Source of the DNA: Pseudomonadales bacterium
GTDB lineage: Bacteria; Pseudomonadota; Gammaproteobacteria; Pseudomonadales; Azotimanducaceae
DNA length: 64,000 nt
Reading direction: 5' to 3'
NCBI GenBank assembly: GCA_028285415.1
Contig: JANQPF010000001.1
Coordinates: 62,001-126,000, forward strand
Shown here: positions 14,958 to 35,987 of the stretch, piece after piece
Layout of the letters: every line of letters starts with the position of its first letter
Numbering within the stretch: the stretch's first letter is position 1
Notes under the pieces: generated by a model
Told to the model about the DNA's origin: nothing
Databases searched by the model: none
The model's input: only the letters and a program-made list of their open reading frames with translations
Translations under genes and position numbers: made by a program

Positions 14958-15458
14958 TCACTCGAGGAAACGCGGTATCAGCTCGGCAAAGTTGCAGGGT
15001 TTGAAATTGATATCTAGCTGATTGCGGATGATCTTCTCCCAGCCGGTTTTGACCGCGTTTGAGGAGCCGGGCAGGGAGAAGATGAGCGTGGCGTTGGCCA
15101 GTCCGCCCACAGCGCGTGACTGAATGGTGGAAGCCCCGATTTCCTCGTAGGAGATCTGCCGGAAGAGTTCCCCGAAACCGCCGATTTCCTTGTCGAAAAG
15201 TACGCTGACAGCTTCCGGCGTGCTGTCACGGCCGGTGAAGCCCGTGCCACCCGTGGTGAGAATGACCTGGACGCCGGGATCGGCAATCCACTCAGAGACC
15301 CGGGCGCGGATGGCGTAGATGTCGTCTTTCACGATGGCCCGATCGGTCAGCACATGGCCCGCCTTGCCGACCGCGTCACACAGATAGTCGCCGGACTTGT
15401 CGTCGTCGAGGCTGCGGGTGTCGGAAATGGTGAGAACTGTACAGTTGAGCGCCGTCAT
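14958..15458 (-). CDS. moaB: Molybdenum cofactor biosynthesis protein MoaB
   Basis: 166-residue MoaB/MogA-fold protein that binds molybdopterin, probably as an adenylyltransferase-type enzyme or in a related step. The MPT-binding motifs are clear: [18 protein letters not shown] at about residues 66-83, then [18 protein letters not shown]. The start is ATG 15458 ([15 protein letters not shown]); longer frames upstream have no family similarity. The gene diverges from the large carboxylase with 63 bases between starts. It supports molybdoenzymes such as MsrP in this window, but the linkage here to fatty-acid genes is probably positional only. Confidence 0.92.
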
Positions 15459-15521
15459 GCTTGTTGGAATTCCTGCTGGAACTGGATAGAGTACCGCCAT
15501 TCTACACCCAGCCAAAAAATC

Positions 15522-18500
15522 GTGGAAAAACAGCTCATTGAAGGCGACCGCCTTTACCTCATCGCCGAAAGCCTGGCCAAAGATTTCTCCCTGTTTCCAG
15601 ATATCTCTCAAGAACAAGAACCCGTCCAGGGGCTCCTGACCCAGGCGCAGATCGAGCGCCGTACGGAAGAGCTGGCCAATCTCGACATTGATGCTTATGT
15701 CGAAGCTGCGGTCAGTCCGGCGGAGGACCAGACGCGTACGCCGGCGCCGGAAATCATCCGCCAGCTCGGGCAAATCGTGGAAGAGGAGAGCGCAGGCCCG
15801 TACTACCAGGCAATGTTGAACATGGACTTTGGTGGGGGGAGTACCCGCCTCGTGGGATTTCTGGCCCAGGACCGCAGCAGCGATCTCGGCTCTTGGATGC
15901 CCGAGCACCATCTGCGAGCTGCGGGTTTTGCAGACTATTGTTCGACGCGTTCGATTCCGATGGTGACGTTTATGGACACGCCGGGTGCGGATGCACGCGA
16001 AGCTGCAAACGCCGACAATCAGGCGCATAGCATTTCCCGCTTGATTGCGGAGATGAGTAACGTCGACGTGCCAACCGTAGGCCTCATCTATGGGCTGGGT
16101 TACTCCGGTGGAGCCATCCCGCTGGCGGCCAGCAACATGATTCTCTCATTGCGGGACGGTGTTTTCAGTACCATCCAGCCACCCTCTCTTGCGAACATCG
16201 CGCGGCGTTTGAATCTGTCGTGGCAGGAGTGTGCAAAGTACGTTGGCGTCTCTCCGTATGAATTGCACGCGCAGGGGAATATTGACGGCATTGTCGACTA
16301 CACGCCCAATGACAGTATCGACAAGCTCGAGAACTTGCGGACTGCAATTATCGGCAGTATTGCCAACGTAGAAGCACGCGTGAAGGAGTTTGTCGCTGAG
16401 AATCCTTACATTCTCGATCACTATCGTCAAAGCCTCCAGCGGTATTTGAATCCCTCGCCGCAGCTTCAGGCGATGCAGACCTCAGCGTCGCTGAAACTCA
16501 CAAAAAACCCAACCGAGTACCTGAACGTCTTCGGTGTCGCCTACCGCTACCTTCGATACCTGCAGGTGCGTAAGCGCATCAAGGCGACGACTACCCAGCA
16601 GTACGGACGCCTGGCAACCCAGGAGCTGCCGAAGGGCGAGCTGCATATCCGCGCCGACCGTGAGCGGCGGCAAGCTTTTCTGACCTGGCTGCAGGATCCG
16701 GACAAAATCGTTTACGACGATGTGCTCTCCAAAGTTTGGCGCAACTATCACGAAAAGCGCCAAGCCCTGCACGATGAGCGGGGCCGTATCGCGCAGCTCA
16801 TTTTTGGTGAACCGAAACAGAACTATGAGGACGCGCGGGCTTCACTCCTGTCGTCTATCGGCATCTTCCTCTATAACCGCTGGAAAGGTGAGTCGGTAGG
16901 TAATCTGCGGGCGCTGCGTGAGTATCTGCATAATCATGAGGATACGCGGCAGATCCTCAAAGTATCCGACATCGGCAACGCCCGAGCGCTTCTCAGCGCC
17001 ATCTCCGCGGACGCGGAGATGCTCACTATCTTACGGGAGCGGTTCACCTATGAAGGCAAGAAGTTACTGGCGCTCAAAGGTCTTGACGACAAATCAGAAG
17101 TTTTCCTGACAAAGCTGTTGACGGCAGAGTTGAACCTGGCGATCACCGGCCCGGCAATGCTGGGCGCAATCGGTCATTCGGACATCCATGCCAACCGTGG
17201 GCTCTTGCACCTGCGATTTCCGAGTTTCGTCAAGCCGACGGAGAGCTTAGGCAAACCCGTGGCGCTCTCCGACATGACGGTCCTCGACGTACTCCTCGAC
17301 GAAGAGCTGCGTGACGACTTCATCCGCGAGTGTGAAAACCTGTTGCTCTTCGACTCGGTCTACGATCAGATCATTGCCAACCTGGATTCGATTGCCGCGG
17401 AAGCACAGTCTGATCAGAGCCTGAGTCAGGCTTCGCTCGATCAGCTGATAGAAACAACGTTGAGATTTGCAGCCAGCGGTCTGACGCTGGGGGATGTCGA
17501 GCGGCAGGCGCAACCTACTGTGGGCATGCTACGTGACCAGTTTTTTGACTGGTCCCAACGTCTCGAGAAGATGCCGAAAGGCACGGACTTCTATCGGCAG
17601 GTGGAGGAGTGGAAGAAGCTGAGCTTCCCGCACCTGGCTGATGCGCTTTTTGTGGTAGTCACACACCTCTTTGAGAGCTTGTTAAGTTCGTACATGGCGG
17701 CAATGCGGGACGGCAAGCAATATCAGGGGCGCATCGCGCCCAAAAACATCGGGCGCCGCAAAGACTTCTGGAACCGCCTCAACATGGCGTACAACGACTT
17801 GTTGATGCAAAACGTGTTGCGTAAAAGCCGGAATAGTCACCGGTTCACATACGAAGACCTCATCGACCGTTACTTTGACGACTGGGAAAGCCGCTTTGAT
17901 GACCTGCTGAGCTCCGATCCGTGCTCGTTTCCTGGGTTCCGCCTGTCCATCGAGCAGGCGCTCAACAAGGACCTACCGCCCTGCGGCATCGTGACCGGCT
18001 TCGGTAAGCTCAGAGGTGACGGGCCACGCGTGGGCGTTGTGGTGTCGAACGTCGCCTTCCAGGCGGGTGCCTTTGATATGGCAAGCGCCGAGAAATTCTG
18101 TCGTCTGCTCGTCGAATGCGCTGAGCAGCATCTGCCCGTCGTATGCTTCATCTCATCAGGTGGCATGCAGACAAAAGAAGGGGCCGGGGCGCTCTTTTCC
18201 ATGGCCGCGGTCAACGATCGCATTACGCGTTTTGTCCGCGATCACGATCTGCCGGTGATTGTGTTCGGCTTCGGCGATTGTACCGGCGGCGCCCAGGCAA
18301 GCTTCGTGACCCACCCGCTCGTCCAGACATACTACTTCTCCGGGACGAGCATGCCGTTTGCCGGCCAGATTGTGGTGCAGTCCAATCTGCCGCTGAATTC
18401 GATTCTCTCGAACTATCTCTCGGCGCATGAAGGGGCCATGCAGGGCCTTGTGGAACATCCGTTTTATCCGACCATCGACGAGGATCTCAAGGCGATCGAT

Positions 18501-20372
18501 CCGGCGATTCCGGTGCCAACGGAAACCGTCGAGCAGGTGGTGCAGCGGGTGCTGGCTGGCGGCTTTACCGAGCAACGCCCCGTGGTCGTTGCGCATCGGC
18601 CGAGATACACCGACAAAGATCTGATTCGTCCCGTCAAGAAGGTGCTGATCCACGCGCGCGGCTGCACCGCGGCGAAGCTCGTGCGCATCGCGCAGACAGA
18701 GGATATCGACGTGGTCCTGGTGCAGAGCGATCCAGACATGGAATCTGCCGTGGTGGATCAGCTGCGCGACCGGGATACGCTCGTCTGTATTGGCGGCAAC
18801 ACGCCGGACGAGAGTTATCTCAACGCCATGAGCGTGCTGAACGTGGCGGAGAACGAAGGCGTCGACAGCCTGCACCCTGGCATCGGTTTTCTGTCCGAGA
18901 ATTCATCGTTCGCCGAGCTGGTGCGCAGCCACGGTATCAACTTTGTCGGGCCATCGGTCGCCAGCATGGAGACGATGGGGAACAAATCGAATGCCATCAA
19001 CACGTCGCTGCGTCTGAACGTGCCGGTGGTACCCGGCAGCCACGGCATCCTGACGAATCCGGAGCGGGCTGCGGAGGTTGCCGAGGAGATTGGCTATCCG
19101 GTCCTCATCAAGGCGGTACACGGTGGCGGTGGCAAAGGCATACAAGTGGTCGAAGACCGCAACGACTTCGTTGAGCTCTTTCACCGCGTGACGATGGAAG
19201 CGCGGAGCGCCTTTGGCAACGGGGACGTTTATCTCGAGAAGTTTGTCACCTCGCTTCGGCACATCGAGGCGCAGCTGCTGCGCGACACGCACGGCAACAC
19301 GCACGTTCTCGGTATCCGCGATTGCAGCGTACAGCGCGACAAGCAGAAGGTGATCGAGGAGTCGGGATCCACCACGCTGCCCGAGCGGCTGCTGGCAACG
19401 GTCAAGCGCTCTACCGCCGATATTGCCAACGAAGTCAACTACGTTGGCGCCGGCACGGTGGAGTTCATCTATGACCTCGACTCGGATGCGGTCTATTTCA
19501 TGGAAATGAACACGCGTCTGCAGGTTGAGCATCCGGTGACGGAGTGGACCAGCGGCGTCGACATCGTGGCACAGCAGTTCAACATAGCGGGCGGCGGCTC
19601 CATCGCCGACCTCGAGGTTAAAGACGAAGGCTACGCCATCGAGGCGCGCGTTACGGCTGAGCGAATCCAGCAGATTGGCGATGGCAGTCTCGCCTTCAAG
19701 CCGCATCCCGGTCAGATCACGTCCTGCCAGTTTCCGATGGAAGACAACGTCGAGATCATCACCATGGCCGGCACGGACAAGTTCGTCTCACCCTACTACG
19801 ACAGCATGATCGCCCAGGTCATCGTCTACGCAGAAGACCGCGATGCGGCGATCGACAAGCTGGCTTCCTACCTCAGGCGTGTCACCATCTCCGGGATCTG
19901 TACGAACATCCCGCTCCTCATCCGCATCCTGGGCGACGATGTGTTCCGCAAGGGGGTCTATGATACGAACTACCTGCCGCAGCTGCTTGGCCGCATCGAC
20001 GTAGCCCAGCTGATCGACGAGATTGAGCAGGCAGGCAGCGGTGGAGAGGGCATCGATACGGAGGCCATCCGCATCGAGGAAAGTGAGGAGCTGAAGGTGC
20101 TGGCGCCGGCAACCGCCATCTTCTATTCGACGCCGTCGCCGTCGGAGCCGGAGTACGTCAACGTCGGCGATCGCGTGACGCTGGATCAGACGCTCTGTCA
20201 GCTGGAGGCGATGAAAATATTCACGCCGTTGTCGCTGGCTGACTTCAACACCGAAACGGAGCTCTACCCGACGGGGCACGAGTTTGAGGTTACGCGTGTC
20301 AACATGAGCAGCGGCCAGCAGGTCAACGTGGGTGATCTGTTGTTTGTCGTCAAACCGATCGCAGCGGCTTAA
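15522..20372 (+). CDS. Single-chain acyl-CoA carboxylase (CTalpha-linker-CTbeta-BC-biotinyl)
   Basis: One 1616-residue frame holds every part of a biotin-dependent acetyl/acyl-CoA carboxylase. Residues about 100-260 are AccA-like (FMDTPGADAREAANADNQ, then GLGYSGGAIPL). About 820-985 are AccD-like (CGIVTGFGKL, FISSGGMQTKEG, FGDCTGGAQASF), without the AccD zinc finger. About 1037-1490 are biotin carboxylase with the ATP loop HGGGGKG and the active-site stretch EMNTRLQVEHPVTE. About 1525-1616 are a biotinyl domain with EAMKIF; the biotin Lys is K1565. Residues 260-820 match nothing I know and look helical. The start is GTG 15522 (MEKQLIEGDRLYL); upstream frame lies in moaB. Expected reaction: ATP- and bicarbonate-dependent carboxylation, probably acetyl-CoA to malonyl-CoA. 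It is divergent from moaB-thiolase-fabY. Confidence 0.9.
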   Translation: MEKQLIEGDRLYLIAESLAKDFSLFPDISQEQEPVQGLLTQAQIERRTEELANLDIDAYVEAAVSPAEDQTRTPAPEIIRQLGQIVEEESAGPYYQAMLNMDFGGGSTRLVGFLAQDRSSDLGSWMPEHHLRAAGFADYCSTRSIPMVTFMDTPGADAREAANADNQAHSISRLIAEMSNVDVPTVGLIYGLGYSGGAIPLAASNMILSLRDGVFSTIQPPSLANIARRLNLSWQECAKYVGVSPYELHAQGNIDGIVDYTPNDSIDKLENLRTAIIGSIANVEARVKEFVAENPYILDHYRQSLQRYLNPSPQLQAMQTSASLKLTKNPTEYLNVFGVAYRYLRYLQVRKRIKATTTQQYGRLATQELPKGELHIRADRERRQAFLTWLQDPDKIVYDDVLSKVWRNYHEKRQALHDERGRIAQLIFGEPKQNYEDARASLLSSIGIFLYNRWKGESVGNLRALREYLHNHEDTRQILKVSDIGNARALLSAISADAEMLTILRERFTYEGKKLLALKGLDDKSEVFLTKLLTAELNLAITGPAMLGAIGHSDIHANRGLLHLRFPSFVKPTESLGKPVALSDMTVLDVLLDEELRDDFIRECENLLLFDSVYDQIIANLDSIAAEAQSDQSLSQASLDQLIETTLRFAASGLTLGDVERQAQPTVGMLRDQFFDWSQRLEKMPKGTDFYRQVEEWKKLSFPHLADALFVVVTHLFESLLSSYMAAMRDGKQYQGRIAPKNIGRRKDFWNRLNMAYNDLLMQNVLRKSRNSHRFTYEDLIDRYFDDWESRFDDLLSSDPCSFPGFRLSIEQALNKDLPPCGIVTGFGKLRGDGPRVGVVVSNVAFQAGAFDMASAEKFCRLLVECAEQHLPVVCFISSGGMQTKEGAGALFSMAAVNDRITRFVRDHDLPVIVFGFGDCTGGAQASFVTHPLVQTYYFSGTSMPFAGQIVVQSNLPLNSILSNYLSAHEGAMQGLVEHPFYPTIDEDLKAIDPAIPVPTETVEQVVQRVLAGGFTEQRPVVVAHRPRYTDKDLIRPVKKVLIHARGCTAAKLVRIAQTEDIDVVLVQSDPDMESAVVDQLRDRDTLVCIGGNTPDESYLNAMSVLNVAENEGVDSLHPGIGFLSENSSFAELVRSHGINFVGPSVASMETMGNKSNAINTSLRLNVPVVPGSHGILTNPERAAEVAEEIGYPVLIKAVHGGGGKGIQVVEDRNDFVELFHRVTMEARSAFGNGDVYLEKFVTSLRHIEAQLLRDTHGNTHVLGIRDCSVQRDKQKVIEESGSTTLPERLLATVKRSTADIANEVNYVGAGTVEFIYDLDSDAVYFMEMNTRLQVEHPVTEWTSGVDIVAQQFNIAGGGSIADLEVKDEGYAIEARVTAERIQQIGDGSLAFKPHPGQITSCQFPMEDNVEIITMAGTDKFVSPYYDSMIAQVIVYAEDRDAAIDKLASYLRRVTISGICTNIPLLIRILGDDVFRKGVYDTNYLPQLLGRIDVAQLIDEIEQAGSGGEGIDTEAIRIEESEELKVLAPATAIFYSTPSPSEPEYVNVGDRVTLDQTLCQLEAMKIFTPLSLADFNTETELYPTGHEFEVTRVNMSSGQQVNVGDLLFVVKPIAAA

Positions 20373-21103
20373 CCAGGGATGAGCATGCGCACGCCCTGCA
20401 CGACGCAGAGGGTGGCGATGAGCAGGATGATGGCCTGGCTCACTTTCTGAAACGCCGCATCGTTCCAGCGCATCAGAAGCATCGTGCCGAGGCGTGTACC
20501 GCCCACCGCCAGCGCGAGCGCCACGGCAAAAAGCCACCAGGGCAGCGTGGTCCCCAGCGATACGATAACGCCGTAGTACACGATCTTCAGAATGTGGCCA
20601 ATGGTCTGGGTCAGCGCTTTGTTGGCCACAATCTCCTGCCGCGTGAGCGGCGAGTTCAGATAGAACACGTCGAGCAGCGGACCCGACGCACCGGCCAGCA
20701 GCTGTGCGGCCGTGACCACAACGCCGCAGACGAAGGTGGTCAGCGGACGGGTCACGTCCAGACCGCGTAGCCGTTTGTTGGCGCGCGCAAGCCAGGGAAA
20801 GAGCCCCACCAGGATCAGCACCACCCCGGCGTCCGGCACGAGCGCAAGCCAGGTAAAGAAACCCACCGCAACGGCGGCACCGGCGAGGTAGGTCGGCAGA
20901 ATCTGCCAGCGGATGTGGGTACGCAGGAACCAGGCGCGCGAGCCGTTGGAGGTGGCCTGCACGGCACCGTGCAGGAGCATGGCGTTGGCAACAGACATGG
21001 TGCTGACCAGGATGGCCATCAGGATCATGCCACCCGCCATGCCGAGAATTCCCGACAGAACGCTGGTGGCAAGAACACTGACAAGCACGATCACATACAG
21101 CAT
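20369..21103 (-). CDS. Sulfite exporter TauE/SafE family membrane protein
   Basis: 244 residues with about eight hydrophobic segments and the internally duplicated TauE/SafE layout (GILGMAGGMILMAIL near the start, GASGPLLDVFYL in the second half). Family members move sulfite, sulfonates or other organic anions across the inner membrane; the substrate here is unknown. Its stop overlaps the convergent carboxylase stop (TTAA). The divergent LysR gene 85 bases upstream is the likely regulator. Confidence 0.87.
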   Translation of the reverse strand: MLYVIVLVSVLATSVLSGILGMAGGMILMAILVSTMSVANAMLLHGAVQATSNGSRAWFLRTHIRWQILPTYLAGAAVAVGFFTWLALVPDAGVVLILVGLFPWLARANKRLRGLDVTRPLTTFVCGVVVTAAQLLAGASGPLLDVFYLNSPLTRQEIVANKALTQTIGHILKIVYYGVIVSLGTTLPWWLFAVALALAVGGTRLGTMLLMRWNDAAFQKVSQAIILLIATLCVVQGVRMLIPG

Positions 21104-21188: not shown

Positions 21189-22043
21189 ATGATCGAAAAC
21201 CTGGAAACGCTTGTGGCGCTGTCGAAGGCCGGCACCATGATGGAAGCGAGTACGCAGCTGAAAATATCCCAGTCGGCGGTCAGCAAACGCATTGCCAACC
21301 TCGAGCGCTACTACGACCGCAAGCTCATCGAGCGCCACGGCCGCCGGGTGGTGTTCACGCACCACGGCACTCGGCTGGTGGAACGGGTTGGTCCACTCCT
21401 CTCCGAGCTGCGCAGCGTCTTTCTGGAGGACAACGCCCTGCGCAAAGGCAAAATCATCATGGGCGTGTCCGAAGCCATCCTTGCCAGCTGGGGGCCGCGA
21501 CTGTTCTCTCAGGCGGGCGAACAGCTCCCGGGCGTCGAGTTTGAATTCCACGCGCAGCGCTCTCCGGTGGTGCTCGATCGGCTGCGGTCCGGGGAATACA
21601 TGGTGGGGATCTGTACGGGATCACCCGACGCAGACACGGATCTCGTGAGCGAGGTCATCCGTCAGGAGCCCATGGTCATCGTGCCCTCGGGGCTTGCCAC
21701 CCTCGAGTACGGCGTGGGCGAACCGCTGAGCGTCATCACCATCGAATCGCGCTCCGGAGCCTGGGCATCGATCGAAGAAGACATGGCCCGGCTGAATCTC
21801 ACACGTGCGGTCTCGCTGGAGTCGTTTTTTGCGGTGGCGCAGATGGCCATTGCCGGCTTCGGCCATGGCCTGGTGCCCGCAGGCGTTGCGCTGACGCTCG
21901 GCGTGCAGCAGGATCAGTTCATTCCGCTCGCGGCGGAGGGTCTGACCCGCCCGGTGCGATTTGTTGCCCGCAAATCGATGTTCGCGCAGGACCTCGTGCG
22001 TTCTTTCTACACCGAGGTTTCGAGGCTCGCCGTCTCGGTTTGA
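21189..22043 (+). CDS. LysR family transcriptional regulator
   Basis: 284 residues. The N-terminal winged helix (about 1-60) has the LysR recognition helix as KISQSAVSKRIANLERYYDRKLIER. The C-terminal part is the LysR effector-binding fold. It is divergently transcribed from the TauE/SafE transporter, the classic arrangement in which a LysR protein controls its neighbour in response to a substrate. The inducer cannot be told. The 3' end overlaps hemH (convergent) by 37 bases. Confidence 0.9.
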   Translation: MIENLETLVALSKAGTMMEASTQLKISQSAVSKRIANLERYYDRKLIERHGRRVVFTHHGTRLVERVGPLLSELRSVFLEDNALRKGKIIMGVSEAILASWGPRLFSQAGEQLPGVEFEFHAQRSPVVLDRLRSGEYMVGICTGSPDADTDLVSEVIRQEPMVIVPSGLATLEYGVGEPLSVITIESRSGAWASIEEDMARLNLTRAVSLESFFAVAQMAIAGFGHGLVPAGVALTLGVQQDQFIPLAAEGLTRPVRFVARKSMFAQDLVRSFYTEVSRLAVSV

Positions 22044-28968: not shown

Positions 28969-29000
28969 CGCGTTTGCGCTTCACTATGGAGATCGGTCCG

Positions 29001-32000
29001 ATGGCTAACAAAGTAGTAAATGCCTCGATAGTCACCCTCGTTCTGCTGATGCTGGCACCACTGAAAGCATGGGCGCTGCCGCCCAATGCGGTGGATGATG
29101 CCTTTGTCGGTGTCCAGGATACGCAGGTTTCCGAGAACGTTCTGGCGAACGGGGACAGCGGCACCTTTGCGGTAACGGTCTCTGATGCAACCGCGCCGGC
29201 CACGGGTACCTTTGCCTGGGCAGCCAACGGCGACATCACCTACGACCCGGTGCCGTACTTCAGCGGCACGGTGGGTTTCAGCTACGAGATCTTCGAAGCC
29301 GACCCGACCTGTGTCGTGCCGATTCCTGCAGCCTGCTACGACACTGCCCTTGGCACCATCTTCATCGCACCCGTTGCGGATCTGCCGACGCTGTCTCTGG
29401 GCAGCCCGTCCGGTCCTGAAGAGACGGCCATTCCGCTGGCCATGACGATCACCTTGCTGGATACGGACGGATCGGAAACCGTCGATATTGTCCTGAGCGG
29501 CCTCCCAGCAGGTGCCAGCATCAGTCCCGGCATCGACCTTGGTGGCGGGGCTTACCAGCTGACGCCGGCGCAGGTGCCGGCGGCGATGTTGACGCCGCCC
29601 ACCGACTTCGTGGGCACGATTAATGTCAGCGTAGACGTCACGGTGACGGACAACGCGCTTGATCCCACGGCAACCAACGTGCAGGACATCGATACGGATA
29701 GCGACTCTTTCGACGTTACCGTCACCGACGTCAACGACGATCCGTTCCAGATTGCTCCGGAGCCGGTGCTGGTCACCGACGAGGACGTCAATATCTCTCA
29801 ATCGCTGGCGGGTATCGTCGATGACGTTGATCTCCCGAACGGAGACGTGCTGACCTATGTGGTCACCGGCTCAACCAACCCGGCGGTTGACCTTGGCAGC
29901 ACGTCGATGTCGGGCGATACGCTGGACATTGTGCTGCTGGCCGATCAGAACGGAGCCGGTGACGTGATTGTCGAGGTGACGGATAATGCGGCCACAACGC
30001 CCGTCACGCTCAACGTGCCGCTGACCGTGAACTCGGTGAACGATGACCCGTTTCCGGATGTGCCGGTAACGCCGGTGGTCACGCCGGAGGATGTGTTTAC
30101 CTCAACCGATCTGGCAGGCACGGTCGATGACGTCGACATCGTGACCGATGGCGATTTCCTGACATTTACGCTGCAGAGCATCTCGCATCCTGCGGTCGAC
30201 CCCGCATTTACCAACGTGCTCGGCACAACCCTGAACATCGGACTTTTTGCCGACACTTCGGGCACGGGCTCAATCACCGTACGCGTCTCTGACAACTTTG
30301 GCGGTGTGCCGGTGGACGTTGTCGTACCGCTTACAGTCACGGCGGTAAATGACGATCCGCAGCTGATTGCACCCATTCCGTCCATCAACATGTTTGAGGA
30401 CACCACTGAAGCCCTGGATATTGCAACGCTCGTTGACGACGCGGACATTCCCACGGGCGACTTCCTGACGTACAGCATTCTCGGTACGACCAACCCATCG
30501 GTTGATCTGGGTGCATCGAACATGGCCGGTTCGGTGCTGAACGTTCTGCTGCTGCCGGATCAGTTTGGTATCGGCGACATTGTGGTTCAGGTTGAAGACA
30601 ATTTCGGCGGCGTTCCACTAGTCCTCAACATTCCGGTCATCGTCAGTCTGGTGAACGACGATCCCGTGCAGACGGGTCCAGTACCGGTCATTGTCACGGA
30701 CGAGGACGTGTTCCCGCCGCCGGAAGATCTGAATCTGATCGTTGACGACGTAGACATTGTCACCAACGGCGACAACCTCAACTTCACGATCACCAACATC
30801 ACCAACCCGGCCATTGACGCCGCGCAGACGAATGCCATGGGCGGACTGCTCTCCATTGAGCTCTTGCCCGACATGTTCGGCACGGGTGACATTACGGTAG
30901 AGGTATCGGACATTTTCGGCGGTGCACCCTTCGATCTCGTCATCCCGGTGACGGTAAACGAGGAGAACGACGGACCGATCACTGTTGGTACCCCCGTACC
31001 GCCGAGCGTGACTGTCGACGAAGACTCACCGCCGGTAACCGTTGATTTCACCGGGGTATTCGATGACGTTGACATCCCCACGGGTGACAGCCTGACGCTC
31101 ACGGTTTCCCTCGACAGCGGTGCTAACGTTTTCGACAGCATGGGCTTTACCGGTGAAACGCTGAACCTCGCGTTCACCGCCGATGCCAACGGCTCCGCCA
31201 TGCTGCTCATTGAGGCGACGGACACCGACGGTGCTGTCGAGCAGTATCTGTATCCGGTGACCGTGAATCCCATCAATGACGCGCCGTTTGTCTCCGGCGG
31301 GCTGATCAACCGGAACATGAACGAGGACGACCCGCCGGAGCTCGTGCCGCTCGATGGTGTGTTCGACGACGTCGATATCCTGACGAACGGCGACACGCTG
31401 AGCTATGAGGTGAGCACGGACAATCCGGCCCTCTTCACGTCCGTTGCGGTTGTCCCCGCGATGGTGGGCCCCGGCTTCGACATCGTGCTGACGCTGGCGC
31501 CGGACGCCAACGGTACGGCTGACGTGACCGTCAACGCACGGGACGCTGCGGGAGAGCCGAGCCCGCCGGTTGTCTTCACACTCGACGTGACGGGTGTGGA
31601 TGATATGCCAATCGCCGTCGACGACTCTGTGGCCGCAATCTACGAAGATGATGCCGAGCTGCGCGTCGACGTGCTTGCTAACGACTACCTGGCCGACGTG
31701 CCGAGCATCGTGCTGTCCGTAGGCGACCCCGGTCTCTTCTATCTGGTGGATGCCAACGGCGATACCATCGCAAGCCCAACGGGTGTTGTCACGATTGATG
31801 GCAGCGAAATTGTCTTTCAACCGACGCCCGACTTCTGGGGCCCGGTGAGCATCGAGTATTGGCTGCAGGACAGCGATGGGGATATCGACACCGCGTTCGT
31901 CACGTTTGACGTCACGGCCGTGAACGATGTGCCCGAGGCGCAGCCGAACCGCTACTTCAGCGTATTTGAGGGCTCGCAGCTGGATGTGGATCTGGCGAGC

Positions 32001-35000
32001 GGCCTGCTGCAGGGTGCGTACGACCTCGACGGTTCCGTCGTCGATGCCTTGGGTAATCCCATCTACGTGGAACCGTTGAGCGTTGTCTTCCAGACTGCGC
32101 CGCCGGCAACGGAAGGCACTCTGGTGACCACTTCCAGCGACGGTACCTTCTCGTTTGTACCCGCGGTTGGCTTCTTCGGAACGACCAGCTTCGAGTACAC
32201 GGTGTTTGACGGCACCGCGCAGAGCGCCGTGTCCACGGTATACATCGAGGTACTGGCCCTGCCGAGTCCGGGTGCAGCGCCCAATGCCGGCGAGGTGTCG
32301 GTGCTCTTCAATCTGAGTAACACGCCGCTCGAGCAGTCTGCGTCCGTGCCGCCCAACGTGCTGGTCACGATGGACGACTCGGGGTCGATGGACTGGCATA
32401 TCACCGTCGATTCGACCGACGACAACGGCCGCTTTGTGATCGATAACTCCACGATTGCGACAAGCAACGTACGATCAAGGCTGTACACGTATCTCTTTGC
32501 GCTCAACGTCAACACCTACGGCTGGAACAGCGGCAACGGCCGGGTTCTGCCGTCGCAGGAGTCGCTGCCAGCGGGTAACGACTACAACGTCTGGCAGGCG
32601 CGTAGTGCTGCGTTCAACGGCATCTACTACAACCCCGAGGTGACGTACGAGCCCTGGACGGGACTCGACAATGCGAACGTCGACTTTGCGGACGCCGTAC
32701 CGACGGCCATCCGGCTCGACCCGCGCTCGACGAGCAACACGTTGAACATCACCAACGATCAGAACTACACCTCCCACAGCGTGCCGAACTGGGCGACGGG
32801 CGGCGGTTCTGCGGACATCAACGTGACGAATTTCTACATCCCGCGTTACTACACGGCTACCGGCACGCGGGTTGAAATCCGCCCGGCCAACGAGCCGTTT
32901 GCAGGTGGTTCGGAGCGTATCGACTGCGCCGTGCCCACCAGCTGTACGTATGCGGAAGAAATTCAGAACTTCGCCAACTGGTTCCAGTACTACCGCTCCC
33001 GCGAGCACGTAGCCAAAGCCGCCGTAGGCGCGGTCGTAGCTGAGCTGCAGGACATCCGGGTTGGTTTCGAGACGATCAACCGCCGCAACTACGAACAGAT
33101 TGCGGAGATGAACGAGTACTACTGGGAAGGTGAGAAGGCGGAACTGCTGGAGACCATCTACGAGACGAACTCCAGCAGCGGTACGCCGCTGCGCCGCGCG
33201 CTCGACGATGCCGGTGAGATCCTGGGCTGTAACCACAGCAGCCGTGACTGCCCCTCGCTGCCAGCACCGGAAGGCATCTGTCAGCAGAACTTCAGCCTGC
33301 TCTTCTCCGATGGTTACTGGAACGGCAGCGCGCCGTTTACCGGCAACTTCGACCAGGATGGCCCGGGTCCGTTCGACGGCGGTAAGTATGCCGACAGCGA
33401 ATCCGACACGCTGGCTGACATTGCCATGTTCTACTACGAGAACGACCTCTTCCCCGGCACGGACGACGGTGTACCGCTGTCGACCGCCGATATCGACGGC
33501 GTGCCGACGGGTACGTTCACGAGCACGAACGAGCTCATCCATCAGCACATGAAGACCTTCACCATCGCGTTTGGCGTTGAGCCTGACATTGATGCGGAGA
33601 CGGCGGAGTCGGCTGACGCGACGGTCTCTTTCCCGTGGCCCGCGCCCGGCAGCACGCCGAACTCGAAGATCGACGACATGCTGCACGCCGCCATCAACGG
33701 CCGCGGCCGGTTCCTGAACGCGGGCGATCCGCAGGATCTGCAGACCGCGGTTGGTACGGCCTTCCTGGAATTCACCCAGGCGGCTTCGTCGACTTCAGCG
33801 GCTGCGTTCAACTCGACGTCGCTCCGCGACGGCACGCTGCTGTATCGCGCGTTCTACGATCTGCGCAACCGTACCGGTGAGCTGACCGCAACGAGCGTCG
33901 ACACGGCGGGTGTGGTTGCAACGACGCCGACGTGGCAGGCAGCAGAGCTCCTGGATGCGGCGCATCCTTCAGGCCTGTCCGCGGCCGACCGCAAGATTGT
34001 GACCTGGAATCCGAATACCAATGCGGGTATCCAGTTCGTTGCAGGGTCGCTGACGCCGGATCAGGCGCTGACGCTTTCGAACAACCAGGTGAACTACATG
34101 CGCGGTGATCGCAGTCTGGAAGAGCCGTCCGGTTCTCTACGTCCGCGTCTGACCGTTGAAGGGATGCTGGGTGACATCGTGAACTCGAGCCCCGTATTCG
34201 TCGGCGAGCCGCGCGCGTTCAACCGCGACCAGGCACCGTATCCGACGAGTGATCTCTATTCGGACTTCGCCAACGCGCAGTACAGCCGTCAGCCGATGGT
34301 TTATGTCGGCGCCAACGACGGCATGCTGCACGGTTTCAACGCGGAGACCGGACTCGAGGTCATGGCCTACGTGCCGAACATGATCATCGATTCGTCGAAG
34401 TCGTACAGCAACAAGCTGAACAATTTCACCTCGTCGTTCTACCTGCACGACTACTACGTGGACCTGACGCCGCGTCTGAACGACGTGTACATGCGTCCGA
34501 ACGAGTCGTCTTCCAAGCAGTGGATGACAACGCTGGTTGGCGGTCTCGGTGCGGGCGGTAAAGGCTACTTCGCACTTAACGTCAATGATCCGGCTTCGCT
34601 CTTCGCCGATCAGGCGGCTACGGCCAACGCCGTGCTGTGGGAGTTCACGGACGCAGACGACACCTATCCGCTGGATGTGAACGGCGACCCGCTCGGCGGC
34701 GCGGTTGGCGCCCGGGTAGACTTCGAGGGTAACCCGGTTAAGGATCTCGGCTACGCGCTGTCGCTGCCGACCATCTCCATGAGTAACAAAGTGGACACTG
34801 ATGGCAATCAGGAATGGGTAGCCATCTTCGGTAACGGCACGAACTCCACCTCCGGTGTCGCCACGCTCTTCATGCTCTACATGGACAAAGGCATGGACGG
34901 CTGGGCGCCGGGTGACTTCAAGAAGATTCCCACGGAGTGGGGTGTGCCGCTGCCGGGTGAACCGCTCGAGGGTTATCCGAACGCGCTGGGCTCACCCACG

Positions 35001-35987
35001 GCGGTGGACATCGACCTGAATGGTACAACCGACTACGTTTACGCGGGTGACCGGTTGGGTAACCTGTTCCGCTTCGACGTCACGGACCCGAATCCGGACA
35101 ACTGGTTTGCAGTACGCCTCTTCACGGCGACCTATGAGGTCAGCCCGGGCGTTGAGGAGCTGCAGCCGGCGCTGTCCAAGCCGACGGTCACCAAGCACCC
35201 GGATCAGCCCGGCTTCCTGATTACCTTCGGTACGGGCAGCTTCGTGGCTGAAGAAGACGGCAGCGATACCTCAGTGCAGTCGATCTACACCATCTGGGAT
35301 CCGCTGACGACCAACAATCCGCCGACGGCACAGACCGGCAGCAAGTCGCTTCGTCTCGTCGAGCAGGTCATCACCAACGTGGTGGACGATTCGGTCACGC
35401 CGGCGCAGACGCGTCGAATCCTGACCTCCAATCCGGTGAACTACACCCCGGAAACGGGCTCACCCGGCGTCTACGGCTGGTACATTGACCTGGATATGGA
35501 GCGGGCACAGAACACGCTGTCGGGTGCAACGAACACCGACATCAGTGGTAACGCACCGCCGGATCCGCAGTTCCCGGGTGAGAAAGCCATTCGCCGTTTC
35601 GTCTTCCGCGACGGCGTGCTCCTCACCACGACGGTGCTGCCGGCAACGGACGCCACGTCATGTCTCGGTGTACGCCCGGGTGCCATCCTCGTGCTGGATC
35701 AGCTCACGGGCGGTGATCCGGACGAGGCGGTCATCGACTTCAACCTCGACGGATACGTCGATGAGAACGACCTGCTGACGGTTGGCGGCGACGACTTCTC
35801 GGCGGGTCTGCTCTTTGACCACACCGACCTCGACGGCGCGCTGGTAGACCTTTCCACCCTGGGTGGAGAGGGCGACACCGACTTCCTCTTCGTCTCCGGT
35901 GGTAACGATACGATTTCTTATCGCATCCGCGACCTCACGGAAGAGAAGACCGGACGTCTGTCATGGTCCGAGATACAGGAGGATTGA
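29001..35987 (+). CDS. pilY1: PilY1-like tip adhesin with large cadherin-like repeat region
   Basis: 2328 residues, about twice the size of P. aeruginosa PilY1. A signal peptide (about 1-28, ending KAWA) is followed by about 1,050 residues of tandem beta-rich modules. Their linkers recur every 101-110 residues: VNDDPF, VNDDPFP, VNDDPQ, VNDDPV, ENDGPI, INDAPF, VDDMPI, VNDVPE (about 240 to 970). A von Willebrand A domain starts near 1115 with MIDAS D1125, S1127, S1129. The PilY1 beta-propeller covers about 1720-2330 (VYVGANDGMLHGFNAETG), with Ca loops DIDLNGTTD and DFNLDGYVDEND. I chose ATG 29001 because GGAGAT sits seven bases upstream. PilY1 proteins cap pili, control extension and retraction, and bind surfaces. 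Confidence 0.92.
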   Translation: MANKVVNASIVTLVLLMLAPLKAWALPPNAVDDAFVGVQDTQVSENVLANGDSGTFAVTVSDATAPATGTFAWAANGDITYDPVPYFSGTVGFSYEIFEADPTCVVPIPAACYDTALGTIFIAPVADLPTLSLGSPSGPEETAIPLAMTITLLDTDGSETVDIVLSGLPAGASISPGIDLGGGAYQLTPAQVPAAMLTPPTDFVGTINVSVDVTVTDNALDPTATNVQDIDTDSDSFDVTVTDVNDDPFQIAPEPVLVTDEDVNISQSLAGIVDDVDLPNGDVLTYVVTGSTNPAVDLGSTSMSGDTLDIVLLADQNGAGDVIVEVTDNAATTPVTLNVPLTVNSVNDDPFPDVPVTPVVTPEDVFTSTDLAGTVDDVDIVTDGDFLTFTLQSISHPAVDPAFTNVLGTTLNIGLFADTSGTGSITVRVSDNFGGVPVDVVVPLTVTAVNDDPQLIAPIPSINMFEDTTEALDIATLVDDADIPTGDFLTYSILGTTNPSVDLGASNMAGSVLNVLLLPDQFGIGDIVVQVEDNFGGVPLVLNIPVIVSLVNDDPVQTGPVPVIVTDEDVFPPPEDLNLIVDDVDIVTNGDNLNFTITNITNPAIDAAQTNAMGGLLSIELLPDMFGTGDITVEVSDIFGGAPFDLVIPVTVNEENDGPITVGTPVPPSVTVDEDSPPVTVDFTGVFDDVDIPTGDSLTLTVSLDSGANVFDSMGFTGETLNLAFTADANGSAMLLIEATDTDGAVEQYLYPVTVNPINDAPFVSGGLINRNMNEDDPPELVPLDGVFDDVDILTNGDTLSYEVSTDNPALFTSVAVVPAMVGPGFDIVLTLAPDANGTADVTVNARDAAGEPSPPVVFTLDVTGVDDMPIAVDDSVAAIYEDDAELRVDVLANDYLADVPSIVLSVGDPGLFYLVDANGDTIASPTGVVTIDGSEIVFQPTPDFWGPVSIEYWLQDSDGDIDTAFVTFDVTAVNDVPEAQPNRYFSVFEGSQLDVDLASGLLQGAYDLDGSVVDALGNPIYVEPLSVVFQTAPPATEGTLVTTSSDGTFSFVPAVGFFGTTSFEYTVFDGTAQSAVSTVYIEVLALPSPGAAPNAGEVSVLFNLSNTPLEQSASVPPNVLVTMDDSGSMDWHITVDSTDDNGRFVIDNSTIATSNVRSRLYTYLFALNVNTYGWNSGNGRVLPSQESLPAGNDYNVWQARSAAFNGIYYNPEVTYEPWTGLDNANVDFADAVPTAIRLDPRSTSNTLNITNDQNYTSHSVPNWATGGGSADINVTNFYIPRYYTATGTRVEIRPANEPFAGGSERIDCAVPTSCTYAEEIQNFANWFQYYRSREHVAKAAVGAVVAELQDIRVGFETINRRNYEQIAEMNEYYWEGEKAELLETIYETNSSSGTPLRRALDDAGEILGCNHSSRDCPSLPAPEGICQQNFSLLFSDGYWNGSAPFTGNFDQDGPGPFDGGKYADSESDTLADIAMFYYENDLFPGTDDGVPLSTADIDGVPTGTFTSTNELIHQHMKTFTIAFGVEPDIDAETAESADATVSFPWPAPGSTPNSKIDDMLHAAINGRGRFLNAGDPQDLQTAVGTAFLEFTQAASSTSAAAFNSTSLRDGTLLYRAFYDLRNRTGELTATSVDTAGVVATTPTWQAAELLDAAHPSGLSAADRKIVTWNPNTNAGIQFVAGSLTPDQALTLSNNQVNYMRGDRSLEEPSGSLRPRLTVEGMLGDIVNSSPVFVGEPRAFNRDQAPYPTSDLYSDFANAQYSRQPMVYVGANDGMLHGFNAETGLEVMAYVPNMIIDSSKSYSNKLNNFTSSFYLHDYYVDLTPRLNDVYMRPNESSSKQWMTTLVGGLGAGGKGYFALNVNDPASLFADQAATANAVLWEFTDADDTYPLDVNGDPLGGAVGARVDFEGNPVKDLGYALSLPTISMSNKVDTDGNQEWVAIFGNGTNSTSGVATLFMLYMDKGMDGWAPGDFKKIPTEWGVPLPGEPLEGYPNALGSPTAVDIDLNGTTDYVYAGDRLGNLFRFDVTDPNPDNWFAVRLFTATYEVSPGVEELQPALSKPTVTKHPDQPGFLITFGTGSFVAEEDGSDTSVQSIYTIWDPLTTNNPPTAQTGSKSLRLVEQVITNVVDDSVTPAQTRRILTSNPVNYTPETGSPGVYGWYIDLDMERAQNTLSGATNTDISGNAPPDPQFPGEKAIRRFVFRDGVLLTTTVLPATDATSCLGVRPGAILVLDQLTGGDPDEAVIDFNLDGYVDENDLLTVGGDDFSAGLLFDHTDLDGALVDLSTLGGEGDTDFLFVSGGNDTISYRIRDLTEEKTGRLSWSEIQED

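Follow-up and report, generated by a model that had tools for sequence, protein, structure and literature searches.

AccS (AccADCB), a single-chain acetyl-CoA carboxylase of a Pseudomonadales bacterium and its gammaproteobacterial relatives

Acetyl-CoA carboxylase (ACC) catalyses the opening step of fatty-acid synthesis. AccS (SO_0840, 1517 aa) was described in 2016 as the single-protein ACC of Shewanella oneidensis (PMC4793157). According to the available text of that paper, S. oneidensis has no homologues of AccABCD, yet it carries an additional AccB homologue, SO_0511 (PMC4793157). Biotinylation of S. oneidensis AccS was reported in 2023 (PMC10470608) and 2024 (PMC11602165). In the accessible part of the latter, AccS was activated by AccR, and the growth defect that low accS expression caused in an accR mutant was relieved by accA, accD, and accBC from E. 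coli (PMC11602165). The same source stated that the domain order of AccS was unlike that of eukaryotic ACC, and that many organisms with AccS had a LysR gene downstream in the same direction (PMC11602165).

The closest solved protein was PDB 9kkm/9w4a, named "Acetyl-CoA carboxylase multifunctional enzyme AccADCB" (1517 aa; the sequence of 9w4a is identical). According to its title, 9kkm, released on 2025-11-19, is the holoenzyme dimer of S. oneidensis, solved by cryo-EM with the mutation E1238A. A literature search found no publication on the 9kkm structure; we infer that the entry is SO_0840, since organism and name agree and both chains have 1517 aa.

The window analysed here is the whole stretch of 64,000 nucleotides from contig JANQPF010000001.1 of a Pseudomonadales bacterium. 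Its accS (accADCB) gene was located at 15522..20372 on the + strand and encoded a protein of 1616 aa from GTG 15522. In a phmmer search, the protein matched 9kkm/9w4a with 1722 bits in two stretches along the chain, with some 107 central-region residues left unaligned. Pfam analysis revealed ACCA (E 9.5e-23), Carboxyl_trans in two pieces (5.9e-20), Biotin_carb_N (9e-28), CPSase_L_D2 (3.3e-62), Biotin_carb_C (2.7e-25), and Biotin_lipoyl (3.3e-5). Of 47 NCBIfam families, 25 were listed, and all of them scored under their own cut-offs, those of the split subunits included.

According to Pfam and the structural model, the domain order was CT-alpha, helical linker, CT-beta, biotin carboxylase (BC), and biotinyl domain. 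The CT-alpha (AccA-like) half lay at 15753..16316 (+; about residues 78–265), as determined by Pfam ACCA and Carboxyl_trans, alignment, and the model; it was followed by the CT-beta (AccD-like) half at 17874..18560 (+; about residues 785–1013). The BC domain was placed at 18633..19985 (+; about residues 1038–1488) by Pfam, NCBIfam, and mapping to E. coli AccC, and the biotinyl (BCCP) domain with its EAMK motif at 20073..20369 (+). The original prediction, made from the DNA sequence alone, had given the order CTalpha-CTbeta-BC-biotinyl; the Pfam search upheld it, and NCBIfam agreed.

The window protein and S. oneidensis AccS agreed in domain order and catalytic residues and were homologous along the chain; they differed in length (1616 against 1517 aa). 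The original prediction had also held that this order differed from known forms. That part did not stand, because S. oneidensis AccS/SO_0840 had been described earlier with the same architecture, which is also that of PDB 9kkm, while its functional reading, a complete one-chain ACC with the catalytic residues kept, was well supported. A new architecture was thus rejected by the homology and fold match to 9kkm and by PMC11602165. The window AccS adds one more protein to a known family, an uncommon form that has already been described and solved in Shewanella.

Comparison with other carboxylases showed that identity to the E. coli split ACC was 40% for BC, 24% for CT-alpha, 21% for CT-beta, and 27% for the biotinyl domain; the E. 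coli enzyme, however, consists of four chains, and its AccD carries a zinc ribbon that is absent in the window AccS. Like the eukaryotic single-chain ACC, which in the available text of PMC4833862 has all functions in one chain and a large non-catalytic region, the window AccS is one multifunctional chain; the eukaryotic order BC-BCCP-CT, as given in the part of PMC3199775 at hand, does not match the Pfam order of the window protein. PDB 5fif (CT domain of a single-chain bacterial carboxylase) is, by its entry title, also from a one-chain bacterial biotin-dependent carboxylase, but it gave only a local fold match to the CT part of the window protein, with a TM of 0.17–0.18 by query length.

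Relatives were collected by a scan of genome contigs, in which 378 were found and the best 80 of the 378 were kept; across these 80, identity to the window protein was 52–83%. The CT motifs were aligned in 40 sequences (the window and 39 of 44 diverse loci), the same set that was used for the model. GYSGGA (residues 193–198, CT-alpha) and CTGGAQ (residues 920–925, CT-beta) were invariant in all 40 sequences, so the Gly-Gly motifs expected in both CT halves are kept in the window and its 39 relatives.

Residues were mapped to E. coli K-12 AccC, AccB, AccA, and AccD in 71 sequences (the window and 70 full-length loci), with the 10 of 80 loci that were not full length excluded. The conserved BC residues were K1155, K1197, K1276, E1314, E1328, N1330, R1332, E1336, and R1376. 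Among the 15 AccC positions examined, 12 matched the E. coli residue in 71/71 sequences and E1328 in 70/71 (one unknown residue); the other two differed from E. coli, L204 being V or I and H236 being K, N, or R. We take the mapped positions to have their AccC catalytic roles, with E1336 as the catalytic base. E1238, the residue mutated in 9kkm, aligned with E1336 of the window and E296 of E. coli AccC. The expected biotin lysine, K1565 in the 1616-residue numbering (codon 20214-20216), was lysine in 71/71 sequences; the methionine preceding it was F in 10. The intact BC catalytic stretch and the biotin lysine of the original prediction were both found in the window and its 70 full-length relatives.

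The Cys4 zinc ribbon was sought in CT-beta, and none of the four E. coli AccD cysteines was matched by a cysteine in the 71 sequences; a CxxC occurred in one sequence out of 71. The split AccD profile TIGR00515 gave 45 bits with the window AccS, under its cut-off of 317.45.

The two CT halves were separated by an all-helical central region at 16317..17873 (+; about residues 266–784). In the AlphaFold2 model of residues 1–1045 (mean pLDDT 80.2, pTM 0.73), the helical stretch 266–784 lay between both CT halves. A Pfam search with this region (about 266–784) gave zero matches, and its sole match among the PDB sequences was 9kkm. Foldseek with the model of residues 1–1045 also placed 9kkm at the top (E 7.9e-72, TM 0.75, 44% identity), and the next match had an E value of 1.1e-9.

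The window AccS is probably active and dimeric, with acetyl-CoA as its main substrate. In the proposed mechanism, biotin ligase would attach biotin to K1565, and the BC domain would employ E1336 as its catalytic base to carboxylate the biotin with ATP and bicarbonate. The mobile biotinyl domain would then deliver the carboxyl group to a CT site built from the AccA-like and AccD-like halves, which the helical central region would connect. The product, malonyl-CoA, would feed fatty-acid synthesis.

The host genome (5.97 Mb, 34 contigs, 99.03% complete, 3.19% contaminated) was searched for separate accABCD genes, as the original prediction had proposed. With Pfam ACCA, accS scored 79 bits, and the other CT frames scored about 31 bits at most, most of them above the low cut-off of 23. 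The frames with weak ACCA matches were Carboxyl_trans frames of 517–1117 aa; complete split AccA proteins of the order sample scored 454–501. By these ACCA scores, nothing resembling split AccA was found in the host genome beyond accS, and neither AccD nor AccC was found there over the cut-offs. One discrete AccB over the cut-off was present (a 138-aa open frame, 130.6 bits). Since there was no match of AccA strength and no AccC or AccD over the cut-off, AccS is probably the only acetyl-CoA carboxylase of the host. As in S. oneidensis, where the available text of PMC4793157 reports SO_0511, the fused enzyme replaces split AccA, AccC, and AccD, and an extra AccB is kept. We are highly confident that AccS (AccADCB) is a gammaproteobacterial single-chain ACC and that it takes the place of the four-subunit AccABCD in this host.

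Genes of fatty-acid synthesis were found beside accS in part of the relatives. In genomes G005 and G045, both of which keep split ACC, fabA-fabB-fabV-accS lay on one strand (L216:2694-10609 (+) and L217:7016-14708 (-)). FabV scored above its cut-offs and FabA above one of two; the best match of FabB was beta-ketoacyl-ACP synthase I, just under the cut-off. The cluster has the look of a second, portable set of genes for fatty-acid synthesis. Among the 80 loci, 12 (L067, L069, L072, L073, L076, L077, L078, L079, L081, L083, L087, and L088), belonging to Thalassolituus, Bacterioplanes and relatives, carried a FabB-like gene on the accS strand, immediately upstream, with 51–59% identity to FabB of G005. 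Six further loci matched FabB of G005 at 24–27% only, on the opposite strand. No match to FabA or FabV was found beside accS in the 80 loci. By its gene neighbourhood, the fused enzyme is linked to fatty-acid synthesis.

A different or broader acyl-CoA carboxylase, acting on propionyl- or long-chain substrates while another host enzyme makes malonyl-CoA, would be compatible with the six further Carboxyl_trans frames and the six further BC frames (E < 1e-100 to accC) in the host genome. We consider it improbable: the CT halves fitted the AccA and AccD models better than the other CT models listed, no other CT frame of the host passed the accD cut-off, and FabB-like genes stood directly upstream of accS in 12 of the 80 loci, with fabA-fabB-fabV in two genomes. 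Low expression of the Shewanella homologue, moreover, was rescued by E. coli ACC in the accessible text of PMC11602165.

The distribution of the acetyl-CoA carboxylase was investigated in two genome samples, with "fused" defined as an ACCA match in a frame of at least 1213 aa. The order sample of 76 genomes contained nine with the fused form only, two with both forms (G005 and G045), and 65 with split AccA only, in four of which the AccA matches were partial or broken. The fused gene occurred in three of the 140 genomes of the class sample, the host among them, and none of the three had split AccA; ACCA matches were absent from two genomes and limited to a 95-aa fragment in one more. The contig scan for relatives documented a single-chain bacterial ACC in many uncultured Pseudomonadales and related gammaproteobacteria.

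AccB, AccC, and AccD were followed up in the 11 fused-gene genomes and four split controls. Of the nine fused-only genomes, none had AccD over the cut-off, two had AccB (G000 and G036), and two had a BC over the AccC cut-off (G035 and G066). In each of these two, a biotinyl frame of 622 aa was close to the BC, which therefore probably belongs to another carboxylase. In seven of the nine, aroQ lay beside prmA, and accB and accC were both gone from between them; in G000 and G036, accC alone was lost at prmA. accC stood beside prmA in both two-form genomes and in three of the four split controls, G001 being the one where it did not. G005 and G045 carried the fused gene plus a full split set, and the fused protein of G005 was just 32–41% identical to that of the window. 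Scars at the ancestral accB-accC locus point to a replacement of the split enzyme by the fused one in several lineages.

With both forms coexisting in two genomes of the order sample, the window AccS could also be taken for an accessory enzyme, its split counterpart being absent from the draft genome by chance. This is very improbable, as the host genome is 99.03% complete, split AccA and AccD were also missing in G036 of the same genus and G067 of the same family, and in G000 and G036 accC was gone precisely between accB and prmA.

The AccB gene of the host lay in the locus dsbD-aroQ-hydrolase-accB-prmA, with accC missing (C32:8376-8789 of its own genome, L115). The family of the window was represented by 41 genomes, in three of which (G000, G036, and G067) split AccA, AccC, and AccD were sought. 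AccB over the cut-off was present in 27 of the 41, and ESMKM in 27/27 of these proteins. In eight of the 27, accC adjoined accB; in 18, accB was followed by prmA without accC; and one (G246) showed neither arrangement. accC elsewhere in the genome was sought in G000 and G036, and neither had a BC over the AccC cut-off. The 18 lone accB-prmA loci, with ESMKM intact, were L115, L125, and 16 among L192-L214. AccS-sized frames, defined as at least 1466 aa with a BCCP match, occurred in at least 34 of the 41 family genomes and at least 22 of the 27 with AccB, including at least 16 of the 18 with lone accB and at least five of the eight that keep accC. The last count shows that the replacement was not clean everywhere.

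The lone AccB gene looks constrained by its sequence, because amino-acid changes were well below synonymous ones (median pN 0.34 against pS 0.74 in the 18 lone AccB, with near-saturated synonymous sites that limit the estimate of dN/dS). Lone AccB might tentatively be regarded as a second diffusible biotin carrier for the fused enzyme, or as a biotin acceptor and sensor for biotin ligase; if so, it would have a job outside its own complex. Against a special role, the biotinylated proteins that the available literature text names for S. oneidensis do not include its AccB. A literature search for a lone AccB gave only papers on S. oneidensis, of which PMC4793157 mentions, in its accessible part, the additional AccB homologue. 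Testable questions on ACC evolution and regulation arise from the persistence of lone accB and from the fabA-fabB-fabV-accS cluster.

On the + strand, the longest open frame of the window gene began with ATG 15354, ended with its stop at 20372, and had 1672 codons. The gene more likely starts at GTG 15522 or close to it, because ATG 15354 falls within a divergent MoaB-type gene (MoCF_biosynth) at 14958..15461 on the - strand, whose own start is approximate and was chosen. The single frame of 1616 residues from GTG 15522 to 20372 agreed with the original prediction. The whole protein was also in a single frame in 70 of the 80 kept loci; of the other 10, seven ended at contig edges and three (L019, L033, and L063) had a frame that was interrupted within the contig. 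An artefact of frameshift or assembly fusing separate accA, accD, and accCB genes, for which the window gave no evidence and the three broken relatives were the one hint, can be dismissed with near certainty, since 70 of 80 loci share the full-length frame and the 1517-residue chain of the Shewanella homologue has been solved (9kkm). The broken accS frames were located in MAG contigs at L019:467-4651, L033:7-4377, and L063:3805-8109, and could reflect sequencing error or decay.

The MoaB-type gene occupies the position that the LysR activator accR has in Shewanella, which distinguishes the two loci; a divergent MoaB within 1.7 kb was found in 51 of the 71 loci with at least 1.5 kb of upstream DNA. 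With the LysR of the window as query, which could miss a distant accR, no divergent LysR was found at accS in these 71 loci. Downstream, a TauE/SafE-type membrane protein was encoded at 20369..21103 (-), convergent with accS, and was followed by a LysR-type regulator at 21189..22043 (+), in the same direction as accS. A same-strand LysR within 4.5 kb downstream was found in 31 of the 54 loci with at least 4.5 kb of downstream DNA. The window LysR matched distant regulators only among solved structures and is a possible candidate regulator of accS. Further along the window, 28974-35987 encoded a PilY1-like protein of 2337 aa whose N-terminal half carries Big_9 and cadherin-like domains.
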